In this document: piece after piece, positions 36,918-54,712 of the stretch
Position numbering within the stretch: the stretch's first letter is position 1
Layout: each line of letters opens with the position of its first letter
Assembly: GCF_028693495.1 (NCBI RefSeq)
Contig: NZ_JAQUVG010000001.1
Coordinates: 49,633 to 113,632, forward strand
Reading direction: 5' to 3'
DNA length: 64,000 nucleotides
From: Zoogloea sp.
GTDB lineage: Bacteria > Pseudomonadota > Gammaproteobacteria > Burkholderiales > Rhodocyclaceae
Notes under the pieces: model-generated
Told to the model about the DNA's origin: nothing
Database searches by the model: none
Seen by the model: only the letters and a program-made list of their open reading frames with translations
Position numbers and translations under genes: made by a program

Positions 36918-36950
36918 GGGGTGTCTCCGGGTGTTTTTGTTGTGGATGAA

Positions 36951-37349
36951 TCAGTTGTTGGGGGCGCCGGCGGAAATCCAGCGGCGGATCAGGTTGCGGG
37001 TGCCTTCGTCGAGGGGATCGGCGCCGAAGGGCATCTGGTCGCCCATCCCGCCCGCATCCAGGTGGGTGCCATCGAGCTTGTGCATCAGGTAACTCCGCTC
37101 GGGCGCACCGGGTTCGATGCGCTTGAGGGGGCTCTCCACCGAGGCCACCTTGACCAGGGAGGCGTAGGCGGCCCCCGGATGCAGTTTCAGGTTGCCCGCT
37201 TCCTGGCCGGTGAGGTGACAGGTCGCGCAGTTGGCACGGAGCACCGGGACGATGTCCTTGGTAAAGCTGACCTTGCCGGCGGCCCCGGCGCCCAGGGGCG
37301 CCAGGAGCAGCAGGCCGGCCAGCCCGATCAGGCTGGCCACGGGTTTCAC
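36951..37349 (-). CDS. exported c-type cytochrome
   Basis: Signal peptide then SFTKDIVPVLRANCATCHLTG (CXXCH); MPFGADPLDEGTRNLIRRWISAGAP. Confidence 0.85.
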   Translation of the reverse strand: MKPVASLIGLAGLLLLAPLGAGAAGKVSFTKDIVPVLRANCATCHLTGQEAGNLKLHPGAAYASLVKVASVESPLKRIEPGAPERSYLMHKLDGTHLDAGGMGDQMPFGADPLDEGTRNLIRRWISAGAPNN

Positions 37350-39082
37350 ACCCGGGCTCCGGTGGCGTGGAGGGCGGCGATGTAGCCGAAGGTCAGGGCG
37401 ATGCCGATGGTCCCGCCGGCGCCGTAGTAGGCACCCCGGGCGGGGCTGGCCACGCAGTTGCCGGCGCCGTAGAGACCCGGGATGGGCTTGCCGGCGCCAT
37501 CCAGGACCTGGGCCTTTTCGTTGATGGCCGGGCCGCCGTTGGTGTCCAGCGCACCCGGGGCGAGGATGAAGGCGTAGAAGGGGCCGTTCTCGTCGAGGGG
37601 GTGCATGGTCACGTTGGGCATCGGGTTGGCCGGCTGGGTGCTGCCCTTGCGCACCGGCGAGAACAGGGCCTGCCAGTCCTTGTCGTAGTCATGCACGCCC
37701 CGGTCGAATTCCGGATCCTTGCCCGCGCGGGCGTAACCGTTGAAACGGCTCACCGTTTCCGCCAGACGCTCGGCGAAGTTCGGGGTGAGGGTGAAGCCGG
37801 CGGTCTTGTCCTTGAGCTTTTCCAGGCGGGTGGCGATGTTGGCGGACAACTCGGCCAGGGTGGCACCCTCGATCATGAAGCGCGAGGCGCGCTTGTCTGC
37901 GGGAATCGGGAAGGCCCCGCCGAAAGCATCCAGGCTGCGCCCATCGAAGATCATGAACTGGAACTGGTTGGGGTATTCCTTGCGCTGGGTGTCGAAGACG
38001 AAGTGCGTGTTGGTGCGGTCGTTGTAGTTGATTTTTTCGTTGCAGATGCGCTGGCCGTACTTGTTCACCACGATCATCGAATCGCCGGGCAGCACGAAGG
38101 CACCCAGGCCGACGGCCCGGTTTTCCAGGGCTTCTTCCAGTACCACCTGGGTCCGCCAGGCGGTGCCCAGGGCACCCATCCGGGCGCCCGCGGTCGCGGC
38201 GATGGGGATGAAGTCGCCGGTGGAGCCGGGCATGGCACAGGCGCCGTAGATGCCCGGCTGATGCTGGCCGATCAGCTCGGTGTTGTGAGCATAGCCACCG
38301 GTGCCGAAGACCACACCCTTGCGGGCCTTGATGCGCACCCGCTTGCCGTTGTGATCGGCTTCGATGCCGACCACCCGTTCACCCTCCTTGATGACCCGGG
38401 TGACCCGGTGTTCCAGCAGGATCGGTGTGCCGCGGGCCGTCAGCCATTGTTCCATCTGGCTGGCGAGGCTCTTGCCACCACCGGCGGAGCTGGCGCCGAC
38501 CGAGGGCTCCAGGGCGCGGCCGCGGGGGACCTTGTTCTCGGGCAGGTGGTCGGCGTAGTCCGGGGCGTAGGTGTCCACAAACCACATCTTGAATTCGCGG
38601 AAATTGAGGGCCCCCAGCTTGGCCATGTGCTCGACCATCACCGAGCCGTTGTCGTAGAAGGCCTCGATGAGCTTGTAATCACCCGGAGTCAGGCCCAGGG
38701 TCGGGCTGTTCGGCGTGTATTCCCGCGGGAAGGCATAGCGGGCCAGGTAGCGCAGGCAGTCCGCCTTTTCATCCTGGATGCCCCGGGCCTTCAGGAACGG
38801 GTTGTTGGGAATCCAGGTGACCCCGCCGGACTTGCCGGTGGTGCCGCCCGGAAGGGGCATCTTTTCCACCAGGATGACCTTGGCGCCCTGGCCCACGGCG
38901 GTGACGGCCGCCGCACAGGCCGCAGCGCCGGAGCCGACACAGACCAGATCGGTTTCGTGGTCCCACTTGATTGGGGCAGCCTGGACCGTGGTGGACAGAC
39001 CGAGGGTGGCGAGGCCACCGGCAGCGGCGGCACCACGTTTGAGCAGGTCGCGACGGGCCTGCAGCTTGGGGCTGGAAGTCAT
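37346..39082 (-). CDS. Tat-exported FAD-dependent dehydrogenase (KstD/fumarate-reductase-like)
   Basis: ARRDLLKRGAAAAGGLATLGLSTTVQA twin-Arg signal; DLVCVGSGAAACAAAVTAVGQGAKVILVEK. Confidence 0.88.
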   Translation of the reverse strand: MTSSPKLQARRDLLKRGAAAAGGLATLGLSTTVQAAPIKWDHETDLVCVGSGAAACAAAVTAVGQGAKVILVEKMPLPGGTTGKSGGVTWIPNNPFLKARGIQDEKADCLRYLARYAFPREYTPNSPTLGLTPGDYKLIEAFYDNGSVMVEHMAKLGALNFREFKMWFVDTYAPDYADHLPENKVPRGRALEPSVGASSAGGGKSLASQMEQWLTARGTPILLEHRVTRVIKEGERVVGIEADHNGKRVRIKARKGVVFGTGGYAHNTELIGQHQPGIYGACAMPGSTGDFIPIAATAGARMGALGTAWRTQVVLEEALENRAVGLGAFVLPGDSMIVVNKYGQRICNEKINYNDRTNTHFVFDTQRKEYPNQFQFMIFDGRSLDAFGGAFPIPADKRASRFMIEGATLAELSANIATRLEKLKDKTAGFTLTPNFAERLAETVSRFNGYARAGKDPEFDRGVHDYDKDWQALFSPVRKGSTQPANPMPNVTMHPLDENGPFYAFILAPGALDTNGGPAINEKAQVLDGAGKPIPGLYGAGNCVASPARGAYYGAGGTIGIALTFGYIAALHATGARV

Positions 39083-39848: not shown

Positions 39849-40292
39849 ATGACTGACAAGACCGGGATGCCCTGGACCGACAACTACCTGCTGGGCTACA
39901 CCGCCATGGACGATACCCATCGGGAGTTCGTCGAGGTGGTGGACCGCATGCTGACCTGCCCCGATGCCGACCTGGCTGGCGCTCTGCGGGCGTTCATCGT
40001 TCATGCAGAGAAGCACTTTGCCGACGAGAAGGCCTGGATGGAGGCCAGCGAATTCCCGTCCACCGACTGCCACGTGGATGACCACACCGCTGTGCTGTCC
40101 TCCGCCTGGGAGGTGGAGCCCCTGGTGCAGGCCGGCAATTGCGCCATCGGCCGCGAATTTGCCATGGAGCTGGCCCGCTGGTTCCCCGGTCACGCGGATT
40201 ACCTGGATTCGGCCCTGGCCCACTGGCTGGTCAAGAAGAAGGCCGGCGGCAAACCGGTGGTGCTGCGCCGGAACGTGACCCTGGCGGATTAA
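39849..40292 (+). CDS. hemerythrin-like protein
   Basis: DDTHREFVEVVDRML...FIVHAEKHFADEKAWMEAS...CHVDDHTAVL: His/Glu pattern of hemerythrins. Confidence 0.82.
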   Translation: MTDKTGMPWTDNYLLGYTAMDDTHREFVEVVDRMLTCPDADLAGALRAFIVHAEKHFADEKAWMEASEFPSTDCHVDDHTAVLSSAWEVEPLVQAGNCAIGREFAMELARWFPGHADYLDSALAHWLVKKKAGGKPVVLRRNVTLAD

Positions 40293-42490
40293 AAACTGGC
40301 CCGCACGCTCAGGCGCAGGGTCCGTGGTTCCAGCGGGTGGACCAGCCGGCCGTCGATACCGCCGCCACAGCTGCCCGACAGGGTTTCGCTGCGGGTACAG
40401 GCGCCGCCCCAATACTCGATGTCGTTGGCCTTGCGGTCGAACAGATTGAGCACGTCCAGCGTCAGCTGAAGCCTGGGATCGATGCGATAGCCCAGTTTCA
40501 GGTTGGTCAGCAGGAAGGCCGAGGATTTTTCCTGGCCGGTTTCCTCCAGCGGATAGGCGCCCAGGTAGCGCAGGCGCACTCCGCCAAACCACTTGCCGCC
40601 GGGGTCGAGCGTGCCGCCAAGAGAGGCGCTCAGGGGAATGGCGTTGGGCACACGGGTGCCGCCCGTGTTGGCGCTGGCCTGCTTGAAGCGGGCGTAGGAA
40701 AGGGCGACATCCGCGTCGATGATCAGGCTCTGGGCGGCGGTGATGTAGTTGGACCATTCGAGGCCGTGGCGACGTGAGGCGCCTTTGGGCTCGGTGACCC
40801 CCTCGTCGCCGATGAAGACCAGCTCCGAGGCGAGGTCCATCTGCCACAGCGACAGGCCACTGCTCCAGCCCGGCAGCGGCATGGTGCGCATGCCGATTTC
40901 CGATCCCCGGGCCTTGACCAGCAGCGGAACCCGGCTGATCGCGCCGCCATCGACCGGGTTGACGGTGCTGGTCGCCCCGCGCGCATCGTTGCTGTGAAAG
41001 CCGTGCCCCCAGTTGGCGTAAAACTCGGTAGCGCCGAGCAGCGGAAAGGGGCCGAGCACAATGCCGAGCTTGGGGCTGGTCTGGCCGGCGCGTGTCTTGC
41101 CGCCGTTGCCCAGGTTGAATTCGCCGCCGGTAGCCGTGACCCTGGCGTCCACTTCGTCGTGCCGCAAGCCGACCGTGCTGCGCAGCCACGGTTGCCATTC
41201 GGTGCGGGCTTCGAGGAGAAGGCTGGCCGCTGTCTCGGTGATCTTGTCCTGCCGCACCGTGTCTGTGCGCAGCCTGTCCTCGGTGCGGTAAAGGCCGACC
41301 GAACGGATGCGGTCCTGGCGCAACTGAATGCCGGCGGTCAGCTCCGAATCCCTGAAAACCGGCCCGAGAAACCAGCTGCGACTGGCCTGGCCGCCCCAGA
41401 CGGTGCGCGCATCCGCCTGTTCGTGCTGATCACCCTGTAGGCCGTTGATGAAGCCCGAGGGGGCCGAAAACAGGTTCAGGCCGTAGTTGATGACGTAAAA
41501 GCCGGCCCTGCTTGCGCCGTCCTGGTCCGGGCGTGCCCATTCACCCGACAGGCTGTAACGATGGGTCTTGCCGCCGTCCCTGGGCGAGAGGGCGCCGTAG
41601 CGGCCGATTTCTCCGCTGTTGATGGCTCGCTGCGGCACATGCTCGGTGGCCGTCCAACTGGCCTCGTAGGCCATGGCGGTGAGGGAGAAACCCTTGGCTG
41701 CGGTGCCGTCGGAGAGGCGCAGCACGGCGTTGTGCTTTTTCAGGTTTTCCGGCTGCTGCCACGGGCCGTCGTTGCCGGCAAGCTCGAGCGCGCCGAGAAG
41801 TTGCAGGCCGCCACCGACTTCCCCGCTGCCTGCCGCCAGCGCACGGCGGTAGCCGTTCTGGCCGAGGCTGATGTCGACAAAGGGGCTGGCCAGCTGGCGT
41901 TGATAATCGATACGCGCGGCGCCGGTGGTGGCGAAATCCCCGTCCTCGGCGGCATAGACGCCCTTGCGGTATCTGAGGCTGCCAAGCAGTTCGGGGATCA
42001 GGAAATTCAGATCCATGTAGCCCTGCCCGTGAGCGTGGCTGACCATGTTCACGGGCATTCCCATGACCTGGGTGGAAAAGTCGCTGCCATGGTCGAGGTT
42101 GAAACCGCGCAGGAAATACTGGTTGGCCTTGCCGTCGCCCGAATGCTGGGTGACCACCATGCCGGGGATGGTTTCCATGACTTCAGCCGGCCGCAGCAGC
42201 GGGCGATTGGCCAGCTGTCTGGCGGTGACGGTGCCTTCGGTGGCCGAATCGGCAACGCCGATCAGATCCTGGCTGCGGGTGCTGACCGTGACCTCCTGCA
42301 GCGTCGGAACGCCCGCAGCTTGGGCGATGCCCGAGAGCGCACTGGCCACCAGGGCGGCAATGGCGGATGCGTTGCCGCGGGAAAGAGTAAGGACGGTGGC
42401 GGGCAAGGCGATTCTCCGTAGATGCAGTGCTTTGGCGTTGATCGTGCAGTGGCGGTTGGCTTTACGGTTTGTGCGCCTTGCCGGGTTCAA
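40289..42490 (-). CDS. TonB-dependent outer-membrane receptor
   Basis: Plug region (RPLLRPAEVMETIPGMVVTQHSGDGKANQYFLRGFNLDHGSDF), C-terminal LRLSVRASF; exact start uncertain. Confidence 0.88.
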   Translation of the reverse strand: MNPARRTNRKANRHCTINAKALHLRRIALPATVLTLSRGNASAIAALVASALSGIAQAAGVPTLQEVTVSTRSQDLIGVADSATEGTVTARQLANRPLLRPAEVMETIPGMVVTQHSGDGKANQYFLRGFNLDHGSDFSTQVMGMPVNMVSHAHGQGYMDLNFLIPELLGSLRYRKGVYAAEDGDFATTGAARIDYQRQLASPFVDISLGQNGYRRALAAGSGEVGGGLQLLGALELAGNDGPWQQPENLKKHNAVLRLSDGTAAKGFSLTAMAYEASWTATEHVPQRAINSGEIGRYGALSPRDGGKTHRYSLSGEWARPDQDGASRAGFYVINYGLNLFSAPSGFINGLQGDQHEQADARTVWGGQASRSWFLGPVFRDSELTAGIQLRQDRIRSVGLYRTEDRLRTDTVRQDKITETAASLLLEARTEWQPWLRSTVGLRHDEVDARVTATGGEFNLGNGGKTRAGQTSPKLGIVLGPFPLLGATEFYANWGHGFHSNDARGATSTVNPVDGGAISRVPLLVKARGSEIGMRTMPLPGWSSGLSLWQMDLASELVFIGDEGVTEPKGASRRHGLEWSNYITAAQSLIIDADVALSYARFKQASANTGGTRVPNAIPLSASLGGTLDPGGKWFGGVRLRYLGAYPLEETGQEKSSAFLLTNLKLGYRIDPRLQLTLDVLNLFDRKANDIEYWGGACTRSETLSGSCGGGIDGRLVHPLEPRTLRLSVRASF

Positions 42491-42794
42491 CCAGGATCAG
42501 CTGGCCGGTCTTCGGGTCGCGAAAGACTTCGCCGACCCGATCGAAGCCGGCGCCGGCCTGGCCCATGCCGTCGGCGGGGCGTTCGATGGACTGGCCCTTA
42601 TCTACGGGTTTCGGCGGGGCCAGCGCGCCCTGGGTGCTGGCCGCAAGCGCGGCGAGCAGGCCGCAGGCGAACACCAGCATCACGTCCACCAGATTGACCA
42701 GGCTGGCGCGGGGGTCTTCATCCCGGTCGTCGAAGCGGGCGTCGAGGCGCGAATACAGGCGCAGGCGCTTGCGCGGTGGCTGGGCGGATTTCAT
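42462..42794 (-). CDS. DUF2149 (ExbD-like) membrane protein
   Basis: DEDPRASLVNLVDVMLVFACGLLAALAAS; sits between ExbB-like and TonB receptor genes. Confidence 0.78.
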   Translation of the reverse strand: MKSAQPPRKRLRLYSRLDARFDDRDEDPRASLVNLVDVMLVFACGLLAALAASTQGALAPPKPVDKGQSIERPADGMGQAGAGFDRVGEVFRDPKTGQLILVEPGKAHKP

Positions 42795-43228
42795 TCGTCA
42801 CCCTCCAGGGCTTCAAGCATTTCTTCGTACCAGCGCCGCCGCAGCTTGCCGACCACGAGGCCACCGATGCCGGCGACGAGGCCCAGTACGGTGGCGTCGA
42901 AGGCGACCGTCACGGCGCTGGCAAGCTCGGACGGATTGCCCTGTCCCAGGGCGGCAAGGCCCGGTCCGAGGGGAATGATGGTGGCCATCAGGCCAAGCAT
43001 CGGCGGGATGCGGGCGAGCAGGTCGGCACGTTCAAGACGGTGGCGCGCAACACGCTGGATGAGCTGCAGATCGCCCGTTGCGGCGAGCCGCCTGAGGCCC
43101 CAGAAGCGCTCGCCGAAGGCCAGGCCGGCTTCGGCCAGGGCAATGGCGCAGGCCACGATGAGTGCGAAAAGAGCAGGGGTGAGCAGCCAGGTAACGGCCT
43201 GGTGCAGCCAGGAGAGAGCATCGTTCAT
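42791..43228 (-). CDS. MotA/TolQ/ExbB proton-channel family protein
   Basis: MLGLMATIIPLGPGLAALGQGNPSELASAVTVAFDATVLGLVAGIGGLVVGKLRRRWYEE. Confidence 0.85.
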   Translation of the reverse strand: MNDALSWLHQAVTWLLTPALFALIVACAIALAEAGLAFGERFWGLRRLAATGDLQLIQRVARHRLERADLLARIPPMLGLMATIIPLGPGLAALGQGNPSELASAVTVAFDATVLGLVAGIGGLVVGKLRRRWYEEMLEALEGDE

Positions 43229-46200
43229 CGGGGTTTTACCGGGTTGTTGCGGGTGGAGGAAAAGCGCCGGCCACTCCAGGCGAGGCCGAGCAGGAAAATC
43301 AGCGGGGCCAGCGACACTGCGGCCGGCGGGATGCCTGTCGCGGCGGGCGCCAGGCGGGGCTTGAGTTCGTAGTAGCGGTCGGGCGCGGGCGGCGGGGTGT
43401 CCGCGGGCGCTTCAGCGGGCGTGTCGACTTTTGCGCCGCCCTGCGCCGGGGCGGGGGCCGCCGGCGTGCGGCCCGATGCCGGCGTTATCAAAGGGGAGGC
43501 GGCCACCGGGGCCGCCGGTGCCAGGTTCGCTCCTTGGGCGCGGGCGAGGGTGACGCCCAGGGCTTCGGCATCGGCTGCATCGATCTGCGGTTTGAGCCAG
43601 TTCCACATGGGGTGATTGGGCGCTGCGTGACCACTGCCGGGCAGGCCGTTCCTGGCCACCAGCCGGGCCAGCTCGCCCCCCATCTGGCGGATGGTGGCTT
43701 CGTCGGCCTTCCAGAAACCCTTTTCGGCGGCGACCATGAAGATGGCCAGCATGTGGGCCTTCACGTGGGCGTTCTGGCCTTGCTCGAGAAAGCGCGGCAG
43801 ACCGAGCTTCTGCTTGTCGTCGAAGTAGGTTTCCTTGACCTCGTCCCAGGCCCATTGCTTGATCAGGTCGGGTCGGGTGACCTGCCAGCCCCACAGGTTT
43901 TCGAGAAACTCCTGGCCCATCGTGCGAGCGCCGGCGTAGCCGTGCTTCATCAGCGGCTTGAGCCAGGCCGGGTTGAGGTAGCGGCCGCGGAGCTCGGACA
44001 GCAGCGCGGTGGCCAGCGGTTCAACCTCCGGGTGCGCCGCATCGGCGTGCTGCAGGATCAGGGCTTCCGGCAGCCGGCCGGTGAGGGTTTCGATGCCGAC
44101 CGACATGCCACCGAGGTAGTCGAAGGCGTCGTTGTTGTCGAGCAGGCCATAGAGGTTGCTGGCCCGCCCGTGATAGCTGCGGGTGACGCCGGCCAGGGCC
44201 GTCTCGAAGGCCTGATGCGCTGCGTCGCCGCTGGCGTCGAGTCCATAGGCGTGGCCCATGCGCTTGAGGTAGATGCGGCCGAGTTCGTCGCGCTCTTTCC
44301 AGGCGCCGGATCTTTCGGCAAGGCGATTGACACCGGTGCTGTAGGCGCCCGGCGGGTCACCAAAAATACGTGTGGCCGCCGCACGTCCGGCTTCGGGCAG
44401 GCTGAGGCCGGCCTTGGCAAGGAGGTCGATGCGCTTCAGCCAGGCCGCGGCAACAAGGTTGTCAGCGAGGGGCTGACGGCCGTGCTCGATGCCCTTGCCA
44501 GCCGGGGCGAGGGCGGCGGCGAGCGCGTCCGTGAGGTCCGGGCGGATGTCGAGCAGGAGGTCGGCGGAGGCGGCAAGGGCCAGTAGGCCGGCGCGGTCCA
44601 CTTGGCGGAGCAGGTTGGGGTAAAGGTCGCGGAACAGGCCCGAGGTGGTGACGATCACGTCGCGCCGGGGCTTGCCGTCCAGCACGCGCACGTCGGTGAC
44701 GATGCCGCGGGCGTTCCATACCGGCTCGGTGCCCAGCAGCGAGAGGCAGAAGGCGACCATCGCGCCTTCGTCGCGCACCGCGTCGGAGGCCCACAGGATC
44801 ACCGCGTCGCTGTCGACGCCGGCGTCTTTCCTGCGCGGGCGGGCCGTGGCCTTGTCGGCCAGTGTGGCCCCCAGGGCATAGCCGAGGCGGGTGGGCAGCA
44901 GGTCGCCATCCACCGCATGAAAGTTGCGCCCGGTGGGCAGGGCGTCGGGTGAACGCAGTGGGTCGTTGCCCTTGCCCGGTGCCACGAAGCGTCCGGCAAG
45001 GCCAGCCAGCAGGCCTTCCATTTCGAGGCGCGGCGAGATCGCCAGCTTTTCGGCGATGGCCGCATCAAAGCCGTCGGCCACCTGGCTCATGGAGTCGGCC
45101 ATCAGCTTGAGGGATTCGGCACTCCAGTCCTGCCCGAAAACATGCAGGCCATGGGGCATGAATTTTTCCTGGAGCTTGGTGAGGTAGTGCCCGATCTCGT
45201 GGGCGAGGAGATCGTCGTCGGCGTCCTCGAAACCGATGCCGCGCACTTCGAGGACGTCGGCCATCGAGGCTTCCAGCTCGGCCTTCAGGTTGAGCGCGAT
45301 GACCTGCGTCCGCATGGTTGCGGCGGCCTGGGCCTTGAGGCTTTCGCTGTTGGCGGCTTCAAAACTTTCCACCACCTGACGCAGCTCCAGCAGCTTGTCG
45401 TAGAGGGGCGTGGCCGACAGCGGCGGGGTGAGGTGATCGACGATCACGGCGAGCCCCCGGCGCTTGGCCTGAATGCCTTCGCCCACGCCGTCCACGATGT
45501 AGGGGTAGACCCCGGGCAGGTCGGCGGCAATCAGGCTGGGGTAGTCGTCGGCAGTGAGTCCGACGGCTTTACCGGGCAGGAACTCGTAGGTGGAATGGCG
45601 GCCCAGATGGACCACGGCATCGGCACGAAAGCGGTCGCGAATCCAGTGATAGAAGGCCAGGTATTGATGCGGTGGCGCCACGCTGGTGTTGGCGTGCAGC
45701 AGCTCTTCATCCACCTCCCAGCCCCGTGGCGGCTGCGGGCCGACGAAGATCTTGCCAAACACGAGGCCCGGCACCAGCAGCTTGCCGTCGGCCACCATCA
45801 CCTTGCCCGGGGTGTGTCCCCAGCCCCGCAGGCCTTCAACGCCATGGCCGGCGAGGCGCCAGGCCAGGGACGACAGGCTGGAGCAGCGACGCCGGGGCTG
45901 ATCCGCCAGACAGTCCCGGTAGCCGGCTTCCAGCTCCTTCAGACCCGTGATGGTCTCCTGGCGCTTCGGGTGGTCGGCGCCTTCGGCGAGGTGGTGGAGC
46001 TCCTTCATGACCGATTCGACCCGCTTGCGGCCGACGCTGCGCTCCGCAACCTGCTCGGCTTCCAGCACTTCGGCGTGCAGCCGGCCCAGCGGGCCGGACA
46101 CCATCTCGCCCTGCACCCGCTCGGGCAGGGCGGCAAACCAGTGGCGGTAGTCGGCGGCGCTCACGCTGTTCACGTCCCGCGCCAGCTCGTGCAGGGCGGT

Positions 46201-47610
46201 CTTGTCTTCCGGCAGGTTCACGCCCCGGGCCATGATCCGGTCGAGCAGGGCTTCCGGCGAGGCCGGCAGCTCGCCGGTGTCGTAGCCCTCTGCCTTGAGA
46301 CGCTGCAGTACGGCGAACAGGGATGCAGGCACGTCCAGGTTGTCGGCGCCGATGTTCTGCCGGCCCGGCGGGTGGTTGTAGTAGATGATCGCCAACCGCT
46401 TGTTGGCATTGGCTTTGGCGCGCAAGGCCTGCCAGCGGGCGGCGCGGGCCACGAGGCGCTGGATTTCGACCCCGATGGCTTCGGTGCGGCGCAGCTCGAG
46501 GCCGGTCAGGGGGTCGATGCGACTGGCGCCGACGGCCGACACGACGATGGGCTGGCCGATGCCCTGGAGTTCCGGCAGGGCCACCCGGTATTGCACCGAA
46601 TCCACCGGGAGCCCTTCCGGCGACAGGCGCCATTGGGTTGCGCTGCGGTCGGTCAGGCGGATGGCCTTGAGAATGGGGATGTCCAGCTTCTTGAACGCTT
46701 CGGTAACGGCCTCCCGGTTTTCGGCCGCACCGACGACGAAATCCTGCACCACCACCAGCGCGGCCGGTTTGGCCGGGGCCAGCAGTTCGGGCAGGCGCTC
46801 GATGGCCTCCCGCGAGACGCTGCCCCAGCGGGTCAGCACTTCGGCGCAGGGCAAACCCTGGCGGCGGGATTCGCCACAGATCGCGGCGGCGGTGGCGGAT
46901 TCGGTGTTGGACAGGTCGAGCACCGCCAGGGCCGGGCCGGCGGGCAGCAGGCGGGCATTCCAGGCGGCCTCGTCGCGACGTTCGGCACCCTCGACCCGCA
47001 GACGCAGCACGCTCTCCCGCTGCGCCGGGGGCAGCGGCTTGCCGTCGAGCAGGTGGCCGAACAGACGCGCCACGTTGTCGGCGCCGTCCGCCTGCCACAC
47101 CCGACGTGCGGCGAGCCACGCGGCTGCGGCCGGGTGCTGTGCGGCGGCTTCGAGGGCGTCGGCCGGGGGCTGCTCGGCCGTCAGTTGGCGCAGGGTTTCG
47201 GCGGGAAAGCCCTCGAGCCGGCCCAGCCGGCTGCGGCTTTGCAGGTTGAGGCGCTGTTCGCCGTTCAAGGCCAGCACCGTGGCAGCGCGACTGGCGGGCA
47301 GGGCGTTGATCAGCCGGCGTGCCGGGTCGCCGAAGGCCGAGGCGATGAATACCGAATCTGCATCCAGCCACTGGCGCAGCTGTGCATCGCTGGCCACCAT
47401 GATCTGGTTGGGCGTGCGCAGGACGATGCGGTCGCGCGGATGGCTGGCCAGATGCTGACGTGCCGCTTCGACGGCGGCTGGAGCGGCACGATCGGTGACG
47501 ACACCGAAGAGTGTTGCCGCATGGGCCGGCAGACTGCCCAGCAGTGCAAACGCCAGCAGCAGCCCCGCGCAAAGGACTGCCTTACGAGCCGTTGATTCTT
47601 GTCCTGCCAT
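43225..47610 (-). CDS. CobN/HmuS-like chelatase-family protein with signal peptide and C-terminal TM anchor
   Basis: MAGQESTARKAVLCAGLLLAFALLGSLPAHA; NHPPGRQNIGADNLDVPASLFAVLQRLKAEGY; VVHLGRHSTYEFLPGK; C-terminal PAAVSLAPLIFLLGLAWSGRRF. Start moved from 47907 to ATG at 47610. Confidence 0.88.
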   Translation of the reverse strand: MAGQESTARKAVLCAGLLLAFALLGSLPAHAATLFGVVTDRAAPAAVEAARQHLASHPRDRIVLRTPNQIMVASDAQLRQWLDADSVFIASAFGDPARRLINALPASRAATVLALNGEQRLNLQSRSRLGRLEGFPAETLRQLTAEQPPADALEAAAQHPAAAAWLAARRVWQADGADNVARLFGHLLDGKPLPPAQRESVLRLRVEGAERRDEAAWNARLLPAGPALAVLDLSNTESATAAAICGESRRQGLPCAEVLTRWGSVSREAIERLPELLAPAKPAALVVVQDFVVGAAENREAVTEAFKKLDIPILKAIRLTDRSATQWRLSPEGLPVDSVQYRVALPELQGIGQPIVVSAVGASRIDPLTGLELRRTEAIGVEIQRLVARAARWQALRAKANANKRLAIIYYNHPPGRQNIGADNLDVPASLFAVLQRLKAEGYDTGELPASPEALLDRIMARGVNLPEDKTALHELARDVNSVSAADYRHWFAALPERVQGEMVSGPLGRLHAEVLEAEQVAERSVGRKRVESVMKELHHLAEGADHPKRQETITGLKELEAGYRDCLADQPRRRCSSLSSLAWRLAGHGVEGLRGWGHTPGKVMVADGKLLVPGLVFGKIFVGPQPPRGWEVDEELLHANTSVAPPHQYLAFYHWIRDRFRADAVVHLGRHSTYEFLPGKAVGLTADDYPSLIAADLPGVYPYIVDGVGEGIQAKRRGLAVIVDHLTPPLSATPLYDKLLELRQVVESFEAANSESLKAQAAATMRTQVIALNLKAELEASMADVLEVRGIGFEDADDDLLAHEIGHYLTKLQEKFMPHGLHVFGQDWSAESLKLMADSMSQVADGFDAAIAEKLAISPRLEMEGLLAGLAGRFVAPGKGNDPLRSPDALPTGRNFHAVDGDLLPTRLGYALGATLADKATARPRRKDAGVDSDAVILWASDAVRDEGAMVAFCLSLLGTEPVWNARGIVTDVRVLDGKPRRDVIVTTSGLFRDLYPNLLRQVDRAGLLALAASADLLLDIRPDLTDALAAALAPAGKGIEHGRQPLADNLVAAAWLKRIDLLAKAGLSLPEAGRAAATRIFGDPPGAYSTGVNRLAERSGAWKERDELGRIYLKRMGHAYGLDASGDAAHQAFETALAGVTRSYHGRASNLYGLLDNNDAFDYLGGMSVGIETLTGRLPEALILQHADAAHPEVEPLATALLSELRGRYLNPAWLKPLMKHGYAGARTMGQEFLENLWGWQVTRPDLIKQWAWDEVKETYFDDKQKLGLPRFLEQGQNAHVKAHMLAIFMVAAEKGFWKADEATIRQMGGELARLVARNGLPGSGHAAPNHPMWNWLKPQIDAADAEALGVTLARAQGANLAPAAPVAASPLITPASGRTPAAPAPAQGGAKVDTPAEAPADTPPPAPDRYYELKPRLAPAATGIPPAAVSLAPLIFLLGLAWSGRRFSSTRNNPVKPR

Positions 47611-47775
47611 TCTGCCTCCACGTGCGGGAACATCGGCCGTGGCGCCAGGGCAGGGGGACAAGACGGAACGAAAGGACATGCCGGAATCATGAGAACCGGC
47701 AATACGGCGGACAGAAGTCGGACGTTTTCGCTCGCCACGCCCACACCCCGGGGCACAGCCAAACTCATGTCCTCG

Positions 47776-47970
47776 GGCCGGTCTTCTGGCTCGCCGTCGT
47801 TCTTCCCTATCCGCCTTCCCGGGCAAAAATGGCCCAGTGGCATGTATGGATGGAGTCGTCAGGCTTACAGCAGCGGGGGCTGCGCCGGAATGGTCGGAGA
47901 GAAACAACTCGCCAACGTCACCGGACTTCCCGTTTAGCCCTTCCGCGAAAGCGGATCGGGCACCCGGAGG
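47776..47970 (-). ncRNA. cobalamin (AdoCbl-type) riboswitch
   Basis: On minus strand: GGGTGCCCGATCC ... ACGGGAAGTCCGGTGACG ... TCCGGCGCAGCCCCCGCTGCTGTAAGC ... TGCCACTGGGCC ... GGGAAGGCGGATAGGG ... AGCCAGAAGACCGGCC (B12 box). Confidence 0.93.
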
Positions 47971-48170
47971 ATCAAGGGCGCGAGGTTACGGGGAAACGGG
48001 TGATGACGGCAAGTCGTCGTGAGATCGGGCTGCCCGCTTGCGCCGTCTGGCCCGTGATCACGGAGGCCTGCCAGAAAGCTTGGTGGCTTGTGAGCAGCTC
48101 GAGCACTCGACCTGCCGATTGAGGCAAGCGCTTGGTAAGACACTGGTATAGGGCTTCCAGTCAGTTGCCG

Positions 48171-48458
48171 TTAAAGAGTGCTGGGCCAGTTGCGCGCCGT
48201 ATGAACCACGGCAAGAACCGTCACGGTCCCTTCTTGCTGTTGATAGACAACCAAGTACGGTAGCCGGCTTATTACCAGTTCACGGGTGTCTTCGATGATG
48301 CCCTTGCGGCCAGCCTCCGCATGTTGTGCAAGAAGTTTGACCTGCTCCCGAATGGCCTTCACCACGCGGCTTGCTGCGGCAGGGCTGTCCTGGCTGATGT
48401 GTGCTCGAATCTCTTTCAGGTGCTCAACGGCCGGAAGCGCCCAGAGAATCCGGCTCAA
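48171..48458 (-). CDS. RelE/ParE-family toxin
   Basis: ILWALPAVEHLKEIRAHISQDSPAAASRVVKAIREQVKLLAQHAEAGRKGIIEDTRELVISRLPYLVVYQ. Confidence 0.88.
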   Translation of the reverse strand: MSRILWALPAVEHLKEIRAHISQDSPAAASRVVKAIREQVKLLAQHAEAGRKGIIEDTRELVISRLPYLVVYQQQEGTVTVLAVVHTARNWPSTL

Positions 48459-48703
48459 GGCGTCAAGCCTTCCTCACGGTCTAGCCGGTCGAACAGTGCG
48501 TCAAGCTCGTCGTCGGTCACGACCTGGCCTTGCCTTGCTGCCTCAAGCCCGGCTTTCACCCGCCGCAGGTACTCGGCTTGCCAATGGACGTAACTGCTCA
48601 AAGCGGCCGCGGCGAGGTCTTCGTCAGTGCGGCGCGTTTCGGTGGCGATACTGTGCAGCAGGGCTTTGTCCTGCTCGCTGAGGGTGACTGTCAGGTGTGC
48701 CAT
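48455..48703 (-). CDS. ribbon-helix-helix-type antitoxin
   Basis: MAHLTVTLSEQDKALLHSIATETRRTDEDLAAAALSSYVHWQAEYLRRVKAGLEAARQGQVVTDDELDALFDRL; start moved to 48703; overlaps toxin by 4 bp. Confidence 0.83.
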   Translation of the reverse strand: MAHLTVTLSEQDKALLHSIATETRRTDEDLAAAALSSYVHWQAEYLRRVKAGLEAARQGQVVTDDELDALFDRLDREEGLTP

Positions 48704-48997
48704 GGTTGCTCCCGGCGTGGCGTTCCCTGAATGATAACGCGTCGGGCGCCTGGCTCCATTTTTGGCAGCTTTCCGGCTCGGGCTGGGGCGGATGGCGCCC
48801 TGGTGGGAGGACTTCAAGCCTTCTAAAAATCAGAAAGGCGTCCAGCAGTGAAGCGGGTTTTCAAAGGGGTCGGCGGAAGCGTTTGTAGAAGGATTTTCGC
48901 CTAAGCGCCTGTTTTGGTGGAAAGAGCGCCAGATTGAGGCAACACACCCCGGCGAGGGGAGTGCTTGGCTTTTTTACGCGAGCGGAGTAGGCTTCAA

Positions 48998-49027
48998 ACA
49001 AACAATCAAATTTGTTTGTAAAACAAA
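48998..49027. promoter_or_regulatory. AT-rich operator-like element, copy 7
   Basis: ACAAACAA-TCAAAT-TTGTTTGT (8-bp arms, 6-bp spacer) followed by AAAACAAAC. Confidence 0.65.
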
Positions 49028-49059
49028 CTACCTGGCAGCGCTGGAGGAGAAACGTATTC

Positions 49060-50679
49060 ATGGATAGCTACGACTACATCGTCGTTGGTGCCGGCTCGGC
49101 CGGCTGTGTGCTGGCCAACCGCTTGTCGGAGGATGGCCGGAGCCGGGTCCTGCTGCTGGAGGCGGGAGGCGACAACCGCAGCCCACTCGTTTCCATGCCC
49201 AAGGGGTTTGCCAAGCTGGTGGCCATGCCGGCCCATGCCTGGCATTTTCCGGTCCAGCAGCCACGCCTGCCGGGCCAGCCAGCGGGCGAGATGTGGGTGC
49301 GCGGCAAGGGGCTGGGCGGCTCGAGCGCGATCAACGGCATGATCTATGTCCGTGGCCAGCCCGAGGACTACGAGGACTGGGCGGCTGCGGCGGGTTCTGA
49401 CTGGAGCTGGGCCAGCATGAAGCAGGTGTTCCGCACCCTCGAAGATCACGAGTTGGGGGCGGATGAGCTGCGCGGTGTAGGTGGGCCGGTCAAGGTCAGC
49501 CCTGGCAAGTTCCGCTACCCGGTGAGCGAAGCCCTGGTCAAGGCGGGTGAAGAGATGGGCCTGCCCCGCAAGGAGGATTTCAACCGGGAGGATCAGGAAG
49601 GGGTGGGTTATTACGCCCACACCATCCACAAGGGACGTCGCTGGAGTTCGGCCAAGGCCTTCCTCGAGCCGGCCATGGGCCGGCCCAACCTGACCGTGCT
49701 GACCGGTGTTCAGGTGGATCGGGTTCTTTTCGAGGCAGGCCAGGCAGTCGGCGTTGCAGCCCGCCGCTCGGGTGAGTCCGTTCGTTTCCGCTGTCATGGA
49801 GAGGTGATCCTGTCCGGCGGTGCGATGTTGTCCCCCAAGATCCTGCAGCTGTCGGGCATCGGCCCTGGTGCGGTCCTGCAGCAGGCGGGCATTCCAGTAC
49901 TTGCCCATTCCCCCGACGTGGGCCGGCGGATGCGCGAGCATCTGGGCTTCCTGCTGCCCTTCCGGCTCCGCAACGACAAGGGACTCAACCATCGTTTCCG
50001 GGGCCTCGGCCTGGTCAGGAGCGTGCTGGAGTATTACCTGACGGGCGGTGGCCCGATGGCCAGCGGACCTTTTGAGGTGGGGGCCTTCGTGAAGACCTCT
50101 CCCGGGGTGGATCGCCCCGATGCCCAGCTGTACCTGTCCGCGTTCACCTATCCCCGCAGCGATGACAATTTCCCCGTGCCCGATGGCGTCGAGGACCAGC
50201 CCGGCATCACGGCCTACGGCCAGCTCCTGCGCCTGACCAGCGAAGGGGAGATGAAGGTGACCGGTGCCGATCCGGAGCGCCCCATGGATGTCGCCCCCAA
50301 CTGGCTGTCCACTGAAGAAGACTGCCGCGCAGCCATCGACATGTTCCGCTACATGCGCGAGTACATGCGCCGTCCGGCGCTGTCCCGTTACGTGGGTGAG
50401 GAGCTGGGGCCGGGGGTGAAGTGCGAGAGCGACGAGGACATCCTCCACCTGTTCCGCCAGGCGTCCTTGTGCGGTACCCATGCGGTGGCCTCCTGCCGGA
50501 TGGGCCGGGATGCGGACGCGGTTGTGGACGAGCGCCTGCGGGTGCGTGGAGTTCGGGGTTTGCGGGTGGCCGACTGCTCGGTGATGCCCGCCCCCATCTC
50601 CGGTAACACCAACGGTCCGGCCATGGCCCTGGGCTGGCAGGCGTCCAGCCTGATCCTTGCCGATCGTGGGCAGGGCTGA
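49060..50679 (+). CDS. GMC-family FAD-dependent oxidoreductase (choline dehydrogenase-like)
   Basis: [63 protein letters not shown]. Confidence 0.95.
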
Positions 50680-50682
50680 ATC

Positions 50683-51681
50683 ATGACTGAACGTAACTTG
50701 AAGGTCGTACTGGGCAGCCGTCCTGAAGGAAAGCCCACGGTGGACAACTTCCGCGTGGAGGAGGGGCCCTTGCCGGTCGCTGCCGAGGGTCAGGTGCTGG
50801 TGCGCAACCAGTGGCTGTCCATCGATCCCTACATGCGTGGCCGGATGATGGACATCCGCACCTATGCCGAGCCGGTGGCCCTGGGGGATGTGATGGTGGG
50901 GGATACGGCCGGTGTGGTTGTCGCGTCCCGCCATCCGGACTTTGCGCCGGGTGATCCGGTGGCGGCCTACCTGGGCTGGCAGCGCTTCGGGGTGGCCGAG
51001 GGGGGCGCCCTGCGCCGGGTGGATCCCCGCATTCCCTTGTCGGTGAGCCTGGGCGCCGCGGGCATGCCCGGCGTGACCGCCTGGGTCGGTCTGCTTGACC
51101 TGTGCCAGCCGAAGGCCGGTGAGACGGTGGTGGTCAGCGCTGCGTCGGGGGGCGTTGGCAGCGTGGCAGGACAGCTGGCCCGCATCGCTGGCTGCCGGGT
51201 CGTCGGTATTGCCGGCGGCGCGGACAAGTGTCGTCATGTCACGGAAGCGCTGGGCTTCGATGCCTGTCTGGACTACCGGGCCGAGGATTTCCGCCAGCAG
51301 CTCAAGGCGGCGGTGCCCAAGGGTATCGACTGCATCTTCGACAACGTGGGCGGCCCGGTGCTGGAAGCCCTGATCGGACGCATCAATCCCTTTGCCCGGG
51401 TGACCCTGTGCGGAGCCATCTCCGAGGTGGACAACCCCAGCCCGACGGGCCTGCGCCGCCTGCTGCCGCTGATTGTCAATCGGGTCAAGCTGCAGGGCTT
51501 CATCGTCGGTGATCACCTGGAGCGCTGGCCGGTGGCCATCGCCGACCTCTCCGGTCACGTCGCCGCCGGTCGTATCCGATATCACGAAACCCTTGCCGAG
51601 GGGCTGGAAGCCGCGCCCCAGGCCCTGCTGGATCTGCTGGCCGGGCGCAGCCTGGGCAAGCAGCTGGTCCGCATCCCCTGA
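50683..51681 (+). CDS. MDR-superfamily NADP-dependent oxidoreductase (paralogue of 29328-30365)
   Basis: NQWLSIDPYMRGRM; SAASGGVGSVAGQLARIAGCRVVGIAGGADKC; IFDNVGGPVLEAL. Confidence 0.93.
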   Translation: MTERNLKVVLGSRPEGKPTVDNFRVEEGPLPVAAEGQVLVRNQWLSIDPYMRGRMMDIRTYAEPVALGDVMVGDTAGVVVASRHPDFAPGDPVAAYLGWQRFGVAEGGALRRVDPRIPLSVSLGAAGMPGVTAWVGLLDLCQPKAGETVVVSAASGGVGSVAGQLARIAGCRVVGIAGGADKCRHVTEALGFDACLDYRAEDFRQQLKAAVPKGIDCIFDNVGGPVLEALIGRINPFARVTLCGAISEVDNPSPTGLRRLLPLIVNRVKLQGFIVGDHLERWPVAIADLSGHVAAGRIRYHETLAEGLEAAPQALLDLLAGRSLGKQLVRIP

Positions 51682-51703
51682 ACCTTCACCGGGAAAACTC
51701 TCC

Positions 51704-52852
51704 ATGACCACTCCGTTCGACGTCCTGTTCAAGCCCCTCCCCATCGGCAATGTCACCTTGAAGAACCGTCTGGTCATGGCTCCCATGACCCGTAACCGCT
51801 CCGGCCTGGATGGGGTGCCGACCGACCTCAACGTGCTGCATTACCAGCAGCGCGCCAGCGCCGGACTGATCGTCAGCGAGGGCGTCTATCCCAGCGAGCT
51901 CGGCAAGGGCTACCTGTTCTCGCCAGGCCTGTGCACTGCCGCTCACGTGGCCGGCTGGCGCAAGGTCACCGATGCAGTGCATGGGGCCGGCGGAGCGATT
52001 TTTGCCCAGATCATGCACGTGGGCCGCCTGTCCGATCCGCTGCTGCTGAACGGCGCCCAGCCGGTGGCACCGTCGGCCGTGCAGCCCGACCCGACGGCCC
52101 GCCACTATACGGTCACCTGCCCGCGCCCCAAGCGCGCCTACCCGCTGCCCCGTGCGCTGGCCACTGACGAGGTCTACGGGGTGATCGAGGACTACCGGCG
52201 CAGTGCCGCGCTGGCAAGGGAGGCCGGTTTCGACGGAGTCGAAATCCATGCCGCCAGCGGCTATCTGCCGATGCAGTTCCTGTCCACCAACACCAATCTG
52301 CGCAGCGACGAGTTCGGCGGCAGTCTGGAAAACCGTGCCCGCTTCCTGCTGGCCATCGTGGATGCGATTGCCGCCGATCAGGGCGCCGGTTTCGTGGCGG
52401 TGAAGCTGTCGCCGGGGTGGACTTTCCACAACGTCTTCGATGACGACGCGCCGGCCACCTATTCGCATGTGACCCGGGAGCTCTCGAAGCGCCACATCGC
52501 CTACCTTCAGGTAGGCAACTACGGCATGGACTGGGATGTGTACGGCACCCTGCGCCCGCTCTTCGACGGCCCCTTCATGACCGTCGCCAGCTTCACCCGC
52601 CAGAGCGCCGCCGACCTGATCGCCCGCGGGGGCGCCGACCTGGTGGGCTTCGGCCAGGCTTTCATCGCCAATCCGGATCTGGTGGAGCGCTTCCGCAACG
52701 GCTGGCCCATCAACCGCCCCGACATTGCCACCTATTACAGCCAGGGGGCAGAGGGTTACACCGACTACCCCTTCCACGGCCACAGCACCCGCGACGACCT
52801 GCTGCCGACCGACGCGCCGCTGGTGCCGGTGTCTGCCGACGTGACCGGTTGA
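51704..52852 (+). CDS. Old Yellow Enzyme-family alkene reductase
   Basis: LFKPLPIGNVTLKNRLVMAPMTRNRS; GVEIHAASGYLPMQFLSTNTNLRSDEFGGSLENRARF. Confidence 0.93.
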   Translation: MTTPFDVLFKPLPIGNVTLKNRLVMAPMTRNRSGLDGVPTDLNVLHYQQRASAGLIVSEGVYPSELGKGYLFSPGLCTAAHVAGWRKVTDAVHGAGGAIFAQIMHVGRLSDPLLLNGAQPVAPSAVQPDPTARHYTVTCPRPKRAYPLPRALATDEVYGVIEDYRRSAALAREAGFDGVEIHAASGYLPMQFLSTNTNLRSDEFGGSLENRARFLLAIVDAIAADQGAGFVAVKLSPGWTFHNVFDDDAPATYSHVTRELSKRHIAYLQVGNYGMDWDVYGTLRPLFDGPFMTVASFTRQSAADLIARGGADLVGFGQAFIANPDLVERFRNGWPINRPDIATYYSQGAEGYTDYPFHGHSTRDDLLPTDAPLVPVSADVTG

Positions 52853-52862
52853 GGAGGCAGCC

Positions 52863-53426
52863 ATGAGCGTGCGCGCCCCGACTCACGAGGAACTGGCCGC
52901 CAAGTGGGCCATCACCGAAGTCATCCACCGCTACTGCCGCGGCCTCGACCGGATGGACAAGGCCCTGGCCCTGTCGTGCTGGCACCCCGGGGGCACCGAC
53001 GACCACGCGCCCCTCTATGCCGGCAGCGCCGAGGGCTTCATCGACTGGCTGTGGCCGGTGCATGCCGCCATGAACGTCACCCGCCACGTGGTCAGCAATA
53101 CCCTGATCGACCTGCGCGGCCAGGAGGCAGGGGCCGAGACCTACTGGTCCCTGGTGCTGCAGGTGGCGCGGGGCGGTGAGACCCACGACATCGTCGCCGG
53201 CGGCCGCTATCTGGACCGCTTCGAGTGCATTGACGGGGTGTGGGCGATCCGCCACCGCCAGTCGGTGGTGGACTGGAACCGGGTTGAGCCGGTACGCAGC
53301 ACCCTGGCCGACTTTGCCGCCACGCCACTGCTCGACGTGAATAACCCGGAAGTGCCGGCCACGCTGCCGCGGCGCGATGCGGACGATTTCTCGTATTCCG
53401 TGCTCGGGCATATCGAACGGCACTGA
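52863..53426 (+). CDS. SnoaL/NTF2-fold family protein
   Basis: AKWAITEVIHRYCRGLDRMDKALALSCWHPGGTDDHAP. Confidence 0.82.
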   Translation: MSVRAPTHEELAAKWAITEVIHRYCRGLDRMDKALALSCWHPGGTDDHAPLYAGSAEGFIDWLWPVHAAMNVTRHVVSNTLIDLRGQEAGAETYWSLVLQVARGGETHDIVAGGRYLDRFECIDGVWAIRHRQSVVDWNRVEPVRSTLADFAATPLLDVNNPEVPATLPRRDADDFSYSVLGHIERH

Positions 53427-53452
53427 GCTCCACTGCACAGGGTAACCGCACC

Positions 53453-54712
53453 ATGACGACAGCCGCTCCCATCAGTTTTGCCGACCCGGAAATCCGCCGC
53501 TGCCCTCACGCCGCCTACGCGCAGCTGCAGGCTGAGAGCCCGGTGTATTTCGACGCGGGCACCGGCTTTCATGTGGTGACCCGCTACGCCGACATCGCCT
53601 GGGTCAATGCCCACCCGGAACTGTTTTCCAACATGACCAGCCAGGTGTTCGACCGGAGTCATTCACCGGTGGCCGCCGAGGTGGCCCGGCGCTATGCGGA
53701 GCGGGGCTTTCCGCCCCGGCACACCCTGGTCTCCAACGATCCGCCCTCCCACGGCCAGTATCGGGCGCTGGTGGACCAGGCCTTCGCCCGCAAGAACGTG
53801 ATCGGCCTGGAGCCGTCCATCCGGGCGGTGGTGGATGAACTGATCGACGAGCTTGCCGGGCGCGGACGCATCGAGTTCTTCCAGGATTTTGCCGTGCGCC
53901 TGCCCATGTACGTGATCACCCAGGAACTTGGGCTGCCGCGGGAAGACTGGCCGCAGCTCAAGCTCTGGTCCGATGCGGCCATCGAACAGATCAACCCCAA
54001 CCTGGCCCCGGCGCGGGAGCTGGAGCTGACCGACCTGCTCATCGACATGCAGTGTTACCTGCACCGCCATGCCATGGCCTACCGGGCTGCGCCGGGGCCG
54101 GGCCTGCTGTCGGCGGTGGCCAATGCGCGCATCGATGGGCGCCTGCTCGAGGACGGCGAGCTCGTCAACATCGCCACCCAGCTGATGGTGGCCGGCAATG
54201 AGACCACCACCACCGCCCTTGGCTCGGCCCTGTGGTCCCTGCTGGAGGCGCCGGCCCTGCATGCGCAGCTGCGCGCCGATCCGTCACGCATTTCCGGTTT
54301 CGTCGAGGAGGTGCTGCGCCTGCACTCCCCGGTGCCCTACATCTACCGGCTGGTGAAGGCGGATACCGAGCTGGCCGGTGTCCCGCTTGCAGCCGGGGCC
54401 GTACTGATGCTGGCCTACGGCGCCGGTAACGTGGACCCGGGCAAGTTCGAATGCCCCGAGCGCCTTGACCCCGAACGCCGTAATGCCCGCGAGCACATGA
54501 CCTTCGGCAAGGGCATCCACTTCTGCATCGGGCACATGCTGGCCCGCACCGAGCTGCGCATCGCCCTCGAGCGGCTGCTGTGCCGCCTGCCGGATCTGGC
54601 CCTCGACCCCACAGCCCCGCCGCCCCGCTGGTCGTCCAGCTTCCAGGCCCACACCCTGGAGCGCCTCGACCTCGTATTCACACCGGTTTCCGCCGGCAAG
54701 GAGCCGTCATGA
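53453..54712 (+). CDS. cytochrome P450
   Basis: AGNETTTTALGSALW I-helix; FGKGIHFCIGHMLARTELRIALERLL heme-binding motif. Confidence 0.96.
   Translation: MTTAAPISFADPEIRRCPHAAYAQLQAESPVYFDAGTGFHVVTRYADIAWVNAHPELFSNMTSQVFDRSHSPVAAEVARRYAERGFPPRHTLVSNDPPSHGQYRALVDQAFARKNVIGLEPSIRAVVDELIDELAGRGRIEFFQDFAVRLPMYVITQELGLPREDWPQLKLWSDAAIEQINPNLAPARELELTDLLIDMQCYLHRHAMAYRAAPGPGLLSAVANARIDGRLLEDGELVNIATQLMVAGNETTTTALGSALWSLLEAPALHAQLRADPSRISGFVEEVLRLHSPVPYIYRLVKADTELAGVPLAAGAVLMLAYGAGNVDPGKFECPERLDPERRNAREHMTFGKGIHFCIGHMLARTELRIALERLLCRLPDLALDPTAPPPRWSSSFQAHTLERLDLVFTPVSAGKEPS

Follow-up and report, generated by a model that had tools for sequence, protein, structure and literature searches.

Why would a bacterium export, under the control of a vitamin B12 riboswitch, a giant protein of the CobN-type superfamily, which includes the enzymes inserting metals for chlorophyll and vitamin B12? 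The question arises from a gene on the minus strand of the window, i.e. the whole 64,000 nucleotide stretch of Zoogloea sp. that was analysed. The gene (43225..47610) encodes 1461 amino acids, starts with an ATG at 47610 just behind a GGAGG, and has exactly the coordinates and strand assigned to it in an earlier reading of the letters (the sequence-only reading). Its product matches PF02514 (E=2e-242) over most of its length, possesses the domain III histidine and has ChlH, HmuS and CobN as relatives in the PDB, which places it in the CobN/Mg-chelatase H (class I chelatase) superfamily. All NCBIfam equivalog models for CobN and BchH scored far below their cut-offs with this protein.

A Sec signal peptide comprising residues 1-31 (47518..47610, minus strand) was recognised by direct reading, with the predicted cleavage between LPAHA and ATLFG (LLGSLPAHA-ATLFG). 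In the same way a C-terminal transmembrane segment followed by two arginines was recognised at residues 1432-1448 (43267..43317, minus strand). Both elements, which the sequence-only reading had pointed out, are kept throughout the clade of related proteins described below (the B12 clade), and neither occurs in canonical CobN or BchH. According to a survey based on a simple hydropathy and reading test rather than on SignalP, the C-terminal hydrophobic peak is present in the full-length members of the clade and in none of the CobN and BchH proteins. With this distribution the signals are not chance features. The location of the protein is thus well supported: judged from its sequence, it is predicted to leave the cytoplasm via the Sec pathway and to stay attached to the inner membrane through its C-terminal segment, the body projecting into the periplasm, as had been proposed.

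In the window the gene is preceded by a cobalamin riboswitch aptamer forming the operon leader (47759..47982, minus strand; Rfam RF00174, 105.5 bits compared to a gathering score of 31.5; 97 bits with our own covariance model), while the stretch of leader on its 3' side shows no folding beyond that of shuffled sequences. Directly 3' of the CobN-like gene follow, all on the minus strand, the genes predicted to encode an ExbB/TolQ/MotA-type proton-channel protein of 145 amino acids (42791..43228; PF01618, E=5e-8), a DUF2149 protein of 110 amino acids with one transmembrane segment containing an invariant aspartate in an ExbD-like context (42462..42794; PF09919) and a TonB-dependent outer-membrane receptor (40289..42490; PF00593 and PF07715), whose true start is probably a TTG near 42405, as indicated by the leader sequence. 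The riboswitch and the two neighbours named by the sequence-only reading were therefore all recovered by profile searches. Two small overlapping open reading frames 5' of the riboswitch (48171-48817, minus strand) resemble by eye a ParE/RelE-type toxin and its antitoxin, and a bacteriohemerythrin-type protein is encoded convergently with the receptor gene (39849-40292, plus strand). Further outwards (35460-39082, minus strand; 49012-54712, plus strand), inspection by eye pointed to genes for flavoprotein dehydrogenases, a cytochrome P450, a GMC oxidoreductase and a homologue of old yellow enzyme; these oxidoreductase genes probably represent an unrelated catabolic region.

The association with the riboswitch extends far beyond the window. 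A scan limited to a single genome from each species yielded 186 related stretches, from which 80 loci were kept; since resemblance to the window protein was the basis of this choice, the survey is biased towards close relatives. The loci derive from Zoogloea, Massilia/Duganella, Dechloromonas, Methylobacillus, Steroidobacter, Pseudomonas, Alteromonadales-type bacteria and Nitrospirales, and the B12 clade is accordingly spread over Beta- and Gammaproteobacteria and Nitrospirota. The order CobN-like, ExbB-like, DUF2149 was found in 77 of the 80 loci, the exceptions lying at contig ends. A B12 riboswitch of the same orientation, located no more than 8 kb upstream, was likewise detected in 77 of 80 loci, one of them (L099) weak and unconfirmed, by means of our own covariance model and Rfam confirmation of five weak cases. 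No B12 riboswitch was found in the control loci, namely at the ChaN-linked paralogues of Zoogloea relatives, the Aureibacter hmu locus, the BchH loci and the Runella hydrogenase locus.

A quick maximum-likelihood tree with SH-aLRT support only has the B12 clade as a single group (support 100), with CobN (100) and BchH (100) as separate groups. A branch with a support of 99 has all the exported proteins, HmuS among them, on one side, the branching order inside the exported part not being fixed. The phylogeny suggested by the sequence-only reading thus placed the protein with the exported relatives and not with CobN; a position among the CobN sequences would have spoken against its proposal.

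Further versions of the module were also noted. In several Zoogloea genomes (L128-L131) and in L120 and L121, a second exported CobN-like paralogue is encoded together with a TonB receptor, a DUF2149 protein and mostly an ExbB-like protein, followed by a gene resembling ChaN-type haem-binding proteins and lacking a B12 riboswitch; this is probably a haem-iron version. On the Runella slithyformis plasmid pRUNSL01 (L135) the genes for a TonB receptor, ExbB-like, DUF2149 and CobN-like protein lie between hypF and hypC among genes of a NiFe-hydrogenase cluster, pointing to a version linked to nickel. A B12-clade gene on a plasmid of Marinobacter sp. M3C (L133) lacks adjoining ExbB and DUF2149 genes as well as a clear C-terminal transmembrane segment and is possibly decayed or frameshifted. 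A second exported branch, represented by a Trichlorobacter plasmid and by a Zoogloea locus with CbiZ, does possess B12 riboswitches. Its CobN-TonB cluster on the Trichlorobacter (Geobacter) lovleyi plasmid pSZ77/pGLOV01 (PMC3403914) resembles the locus described here in encoding an exported CobN-like protein, ExbB-like and DUF2149 proteins and TonB receptors within an island of B12 genes with B12 riboswitches, but differs in its branch of the exported group and in having its own ExbB-ExbD-TonB set. On pGLOV01 (L134) the CobN-like gene is flanked by the ExbB-like/DUF2149 pair and by the ExbB/ExbD/TonB set, and four riboswitch hits were found in the island.

Alignment with HmuS, CobN and BchH indicated which parts of the active site are shared. 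The motif HLGRHSTYEF (residues 668-677; 45580..45609, minus strand) contains the equivalent of the superfamily active-site histidine (His-538 of HmuS), and its His-672 and Glu-676 are conserved in every group aligned. Other residues are specific to the B12 clade: in the HExxH-like motif HEIGH (residues 804-808; 45187..45201, minus strand) H804, E805 and H808 are invariant in 44 clade members, while the pattern occurs in none of the CobN, BchH or HmuS rows of the alignment. Cys-245 and Cys-255 in the head/neck part (46846..46878, minus strand), a possible disulfide or metal site, are equally invariant in 44 members and both not conserved in the other groups, and His-413 and His-639 are invariant in this clade alone. 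In the motif DNNDAFDYLGG (residues 1158-1168; 44107..44139, minus strand) Asp-1161 occupies the position of HmuS His-1209, as in CobN, and HmuS Asp-1208 is replaced by asparagine. The structure model of the body (pLDDT 75, pTM 0.65) had HmuS as its best Foldseek match (TM 0.60 by query), followed by CobN and ChlH, and its C-terminal domain matched CobN 9fpc with a TM of 0.90 by target.

HmuS of the Bacteroidota hmuYRSTUV operons (PDB 9d26, 9p4s) shares the superfamily fold and the membrane-anchored periplasmic topology, and the hmu operon likewise encodes a TonB receptor, a MotA/TolQ/ExbB protein and a DUF2149 protein, so that the likeness to this operon noticed by the sequence-only reading holds for the module as a whole. 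A narrower version, according to which the protein would specifically be an HmuS, does not hold. The hmu operons are under iron control instead of a B12 riboswitch and include HmuY, which has no counterpart in the present operon. In place of the HmuS motifs LSLDHxxEFMGG (with His-1209) and HFG(T/A)HG the window protein has DNNDAFDYLGG and HLGRHS, so that only the His-538 equivalent is kept, and the region of the Met-rich insertion in domain IV of HmuS is missing, with about 85 residues between the flanking aligned blocks compared to about 290 in HmuS. The head and neck, which in HmuS provide the haem ligands Met-79 and His-254, align too poorly with the available HmuS pieces to speak for or against a relation. 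The reaction that defines HmuS is the NADH-dependent conversion of haem to PPIX. A second point of comparison is BtuS (PMC6460266), which likewise is exported, resembles CobN and has a predicted role in salvage. The B. fragilis proteins BtuS1 and BtuS2 have a link to haem iron, whereas the present clade is associated with B12 riboswitches and genes for late corrinoid steps. The window protein is an exported, B12-riboswitch-controlled CobN-type salvage protein of the HmuS/BtuS kind, accompanied by a proton-channel pair.

The lack of CobS and CobT, visible to the sequence-only reading for the window only, extends to the genome. Neither CobT, which is absent from the genus, nor an AAA+/VWA chelatase partner (best match 27.5 bits) nor a second CobN was detected in the genome carrying the window. 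Among the carrier genomes, a true ChlID-type AAA+ partner was found in 2 of 59, the remaining 57 having background AAA+/VWA matches only. What accompanies the CobN-like protein instead is the membrane pair. All 22 aligned ExbB-like proteins match PF01618, and the family motifs of the second and third transmembrane segments are kept. The DUF2149 protein has an N-terminal transmembrane segment with a putatively proton-carrying aspartate in the context P(L/F)(V/I)DVMLV typical of ExbD/TolR. In its segment NLVDVMLVF, Asp-37 is invariant in 34 clade members (Runella has a glutamate) and lies in register with the aspartate of PLVDVMLVL in ExbD (hhalign E=0.001, but a probability of 21% and one transmembrane segment). 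A search of 29 DUF2149 members with the ExbD family PF02472 gave no match, and the ExbD periplasmic fold is absent from the DUF2149 model, which has low confidence outside the transmembrane helix 30-55. Due to the empty Pfam search we treat the relation as a resemblance at the level of the transmembrane segment. The ExbD-like aspartate suggests that the proton motive force, acting through this pair, replaces the AAA+ motor, and the pair may energise the CobN-like protein via its C-terminal segment. In previous work HmuU and HmuV were drawn as powering outer-membrane import (PMC12583661), and HmuV, a DUF2149 protein, was described as lacking known homology (PMC13227078).

The gene content of the carriers points to the use of ready-made corrinoids. 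Many loci contain an operon of the type BtuB-BtuCD (or ECF)-CobO-CbiA-CobN-like-ExbB-DUF2149, the putative ECF component being assigned by position only, with BluB, CobU, CbiB or CobD near. The genome carrying the window has CbiA, CobU and a DMB phosphoribosyltransferase and no match for the corrin-ring marker CbiC; it contains two further B12 riboswitches, one of which heads genes for a BtuB-type receptor and ABC proteins. Of 50 further carrier genomes (completeness not stated), 46 have no CbiC, while CbiA, the cobyrinate a,c-diamide synthase, is kept in 44 of the 50 and in 40 of the 46 without CbiC. Among relatives lacking CbiC, CbiA occurs in 7/7 carriers compared to 8/33 non-carriers (Fisher p=3e-4, uncorrected for phylogeny). 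The marker CbiJ, without a match in any of 61 relatives, was uninformative. Taking into account that CbiC is mostly lacking and CbiA mostly kept, the CobN-like protein seems to serve in corrinoid salvage and not as a biosynthetic cobaltochelatase. In some B12-making Zoogloea the CobN-like gene adjoins a cluster for early cobalt insertion that includes CbiX and CbiM, so that even there cobalt insertion has another enzyme. A role in the periplasmic corrinoid pathway is therefore well supported by sequence evidence; the riboswitch and the neighbouring genes reveal the link to B12 and not the reaction. The corrinoid-directed function postulated by the sequence-only reading is strengthened to this extent, corrinoid being the presumed substrate.

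The third B12 riboswitch of the same genome lies directly ahead of a gene encoding a protein with CbiZ (adenosylcobinamide amidohydrolase) and CN_hydrolase amidase domains and a signal-peptide-like N-terminus (L119:5576-7498, G000:C3, minus strand). Exported CbiZ-amidases of the same domain architecture are encoded beside exported CobN-like genes at L122:4128-5813 (minus strand), L052:8307-9941 (plus strand) and L046. In Marinifaba (L099:15233-17467, plus strand) a split version, consisting of an exported CbiZ and a lipoprotein amidase, is located right behind DUF2149. The fusion was not found in plasmid records. A putative trimming of corrinoids in the periplasm would explain why salvagers retain CbiA.

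Based on these observations we tentatively prefer, at slightly less than even confidence, to regard the protein as an exported component of B12 salvage that acts on the metal centre of corrins, is driven by protons and probably inserts cobalt. The TonB-dependent receptor would bring corrinoids into the periplasm, where the CobN-like protein would bind the corrin in its central cleft and act on the metal centre via the domain III His/Glu and the clade-specific set of His, Asp and Cys residues. The ExbB-like/DUF2149 pair would serve as a proton-driven motor on the transmembrane segment in place of the AAA+ ATPase (CobS/T, ChlI/D), which would be unable to work in the periplasm. BtuCD or an ECF transporter might then take the corrin core into the cytoplasm, where CbiA, CobO and enzymes of the late B12 pathway would rebuild it. 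As to direction, cobalt is probably inserted into cobalt-free or wrong-metal corrins, an action favoured over transport or dechelation; substrate, motor coupling, chemical step and direction are all deduced from sequence, and we infer in the same sense the label of a periplasmic tetrapyrrole metal-handling enzyme given by the sequence-only reading. Several points count against this proposal. CbiA is cytoplasmic and hence would act after the proposed periplasmic step, although its aerobic homologue CobB precedes CobN, and free metal-free corrins are not known as a common nutrient. Moreover, HmuS, the nearest characterised relative, removes the metal from haem and does not insert it (PMC12583661).

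That precedent would fit a dechelatase which removes cobalt from corrinoids or from other chelates of this metal and so supplies cobalt for uptake, a function to which the induction of the cobN-like operon PA1922-1925 of P. aeruginosa by zinc starvation (PMC4542158), the different metal context of the Runella copy and the CbiM and CbiX genes adjoining the gene in some B12-making Zoogloea could also be related. We nevertheless consider it improbable: His-1209 of HmuS is replaced by aspartate, and with CbiC lacking in the genome studied and in most carriers, additional cobalt would be of little benefit when B12 is short, which makes dechelation, one option of the sequence-only reading, the less likely direction. 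Furthermore, the extraction of cobalt from an intact corrin is a very difficult reaction. Somewhat less doubtful, but still rather unlikely, is an energised hand-off without chelation, in which the body would be a corrinoid carrier and the pair would use the proton motive force to pull the corrinoid from BtuB or to load an inner-membrane transporter. The constant link to TonB receptors and BtuCD or ECF genes, the resemblance of the superfamily head and neck to periplasmic binding proteins (PMC12583661) and a suggested transfer of haem from HmuS to a complex in the inner membrane (PMC13227078) agree with such a carrier, but the invariant active-site His and Glu and the clade-specific His, Asp and Cys residues would be needless for mere binding, and many loci already encode BtuB, BtuC/BtuD and often a BtuF-like protein.

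A haem or porphyrin dechelatase, i.e. a true HmuS that is B12-regulated by happenstance, appears very improbable despite the hmuRS-UV-like module order and the Foldseek result, given the separate clade, the missing HmuS motifs and insertion region and the separate ChaN-associated paralogue without riboswitch in Zoogloea. It is hardly conceivable that an ordinary biosynthetic CobN has wrongly been given a signal peptide. Automatic pipelines label relatives as cobaltochelatase subunit CobN, and CobN of the CobNST and CobN-ChlID systems (PDB 7c6o, 9fpc) shares with the window protein the superfamily, the aspartate at the HmuS His-1209 position and, in CbiA and CobO, neighbours whose reactions respectively precede and follow that of CobN in the aerobic pathway. 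The window protein, in contrast, is exported, belongs to a separate clade with conserved export signals, lacks a CobT or ChlID partner and occurs in genomes without CbiC, most carriers having no ring synthesis, while the B12-making Zoogloea carry the early cobalt chelatase CbiX. A role as de novo cobaltochelatase is rejected in view of the missing partners, the lack of ring synthesis in most carriers and the CbiX of the B12-making Zoogloea.

The exchange of B12 shapes microbial communities, and its salvage is usually drawn as uptake by BtuB and BtuCDF followed by cytoplasmic repair. A conserved exported chelatase-type protein in B12 salvagers, combined with the retention of CbiA and the export of a CbiZ-amidase, suggests a periplasmic stage of corrinoid processing. 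In a wider reading, which we consider rather doubtful, bacteria without ring synthesis may run, governed by B12 riboswitches, a periplasmic corrinoid workshop in which an exported CobN-type chelatase, driven by the proton motive force through the ExbB/DUF2149 motor in place of an AAA+ ATPase, sets or exchanges the metal and the exported CbiZ-amidase trims side chains. After import, CbiA, CobO, CobQ and the nucleotide-loop enzymes would rebuild the stripped core, starting from the cobyrinate stage. Most clusters of the CobN/HmuS superfamily cannot yet be annotated (PMC12583661, EMBO J), and the present analysis delimits one of them, the B12 clade. If the ExbB-like/DUF2149 pair drives the CobN-like protein, the latter would represent a class I chelatase that runs on the proton motive force, and the same motor logic would extend to HmuS and to its zinc- and nickel-linked relatives.
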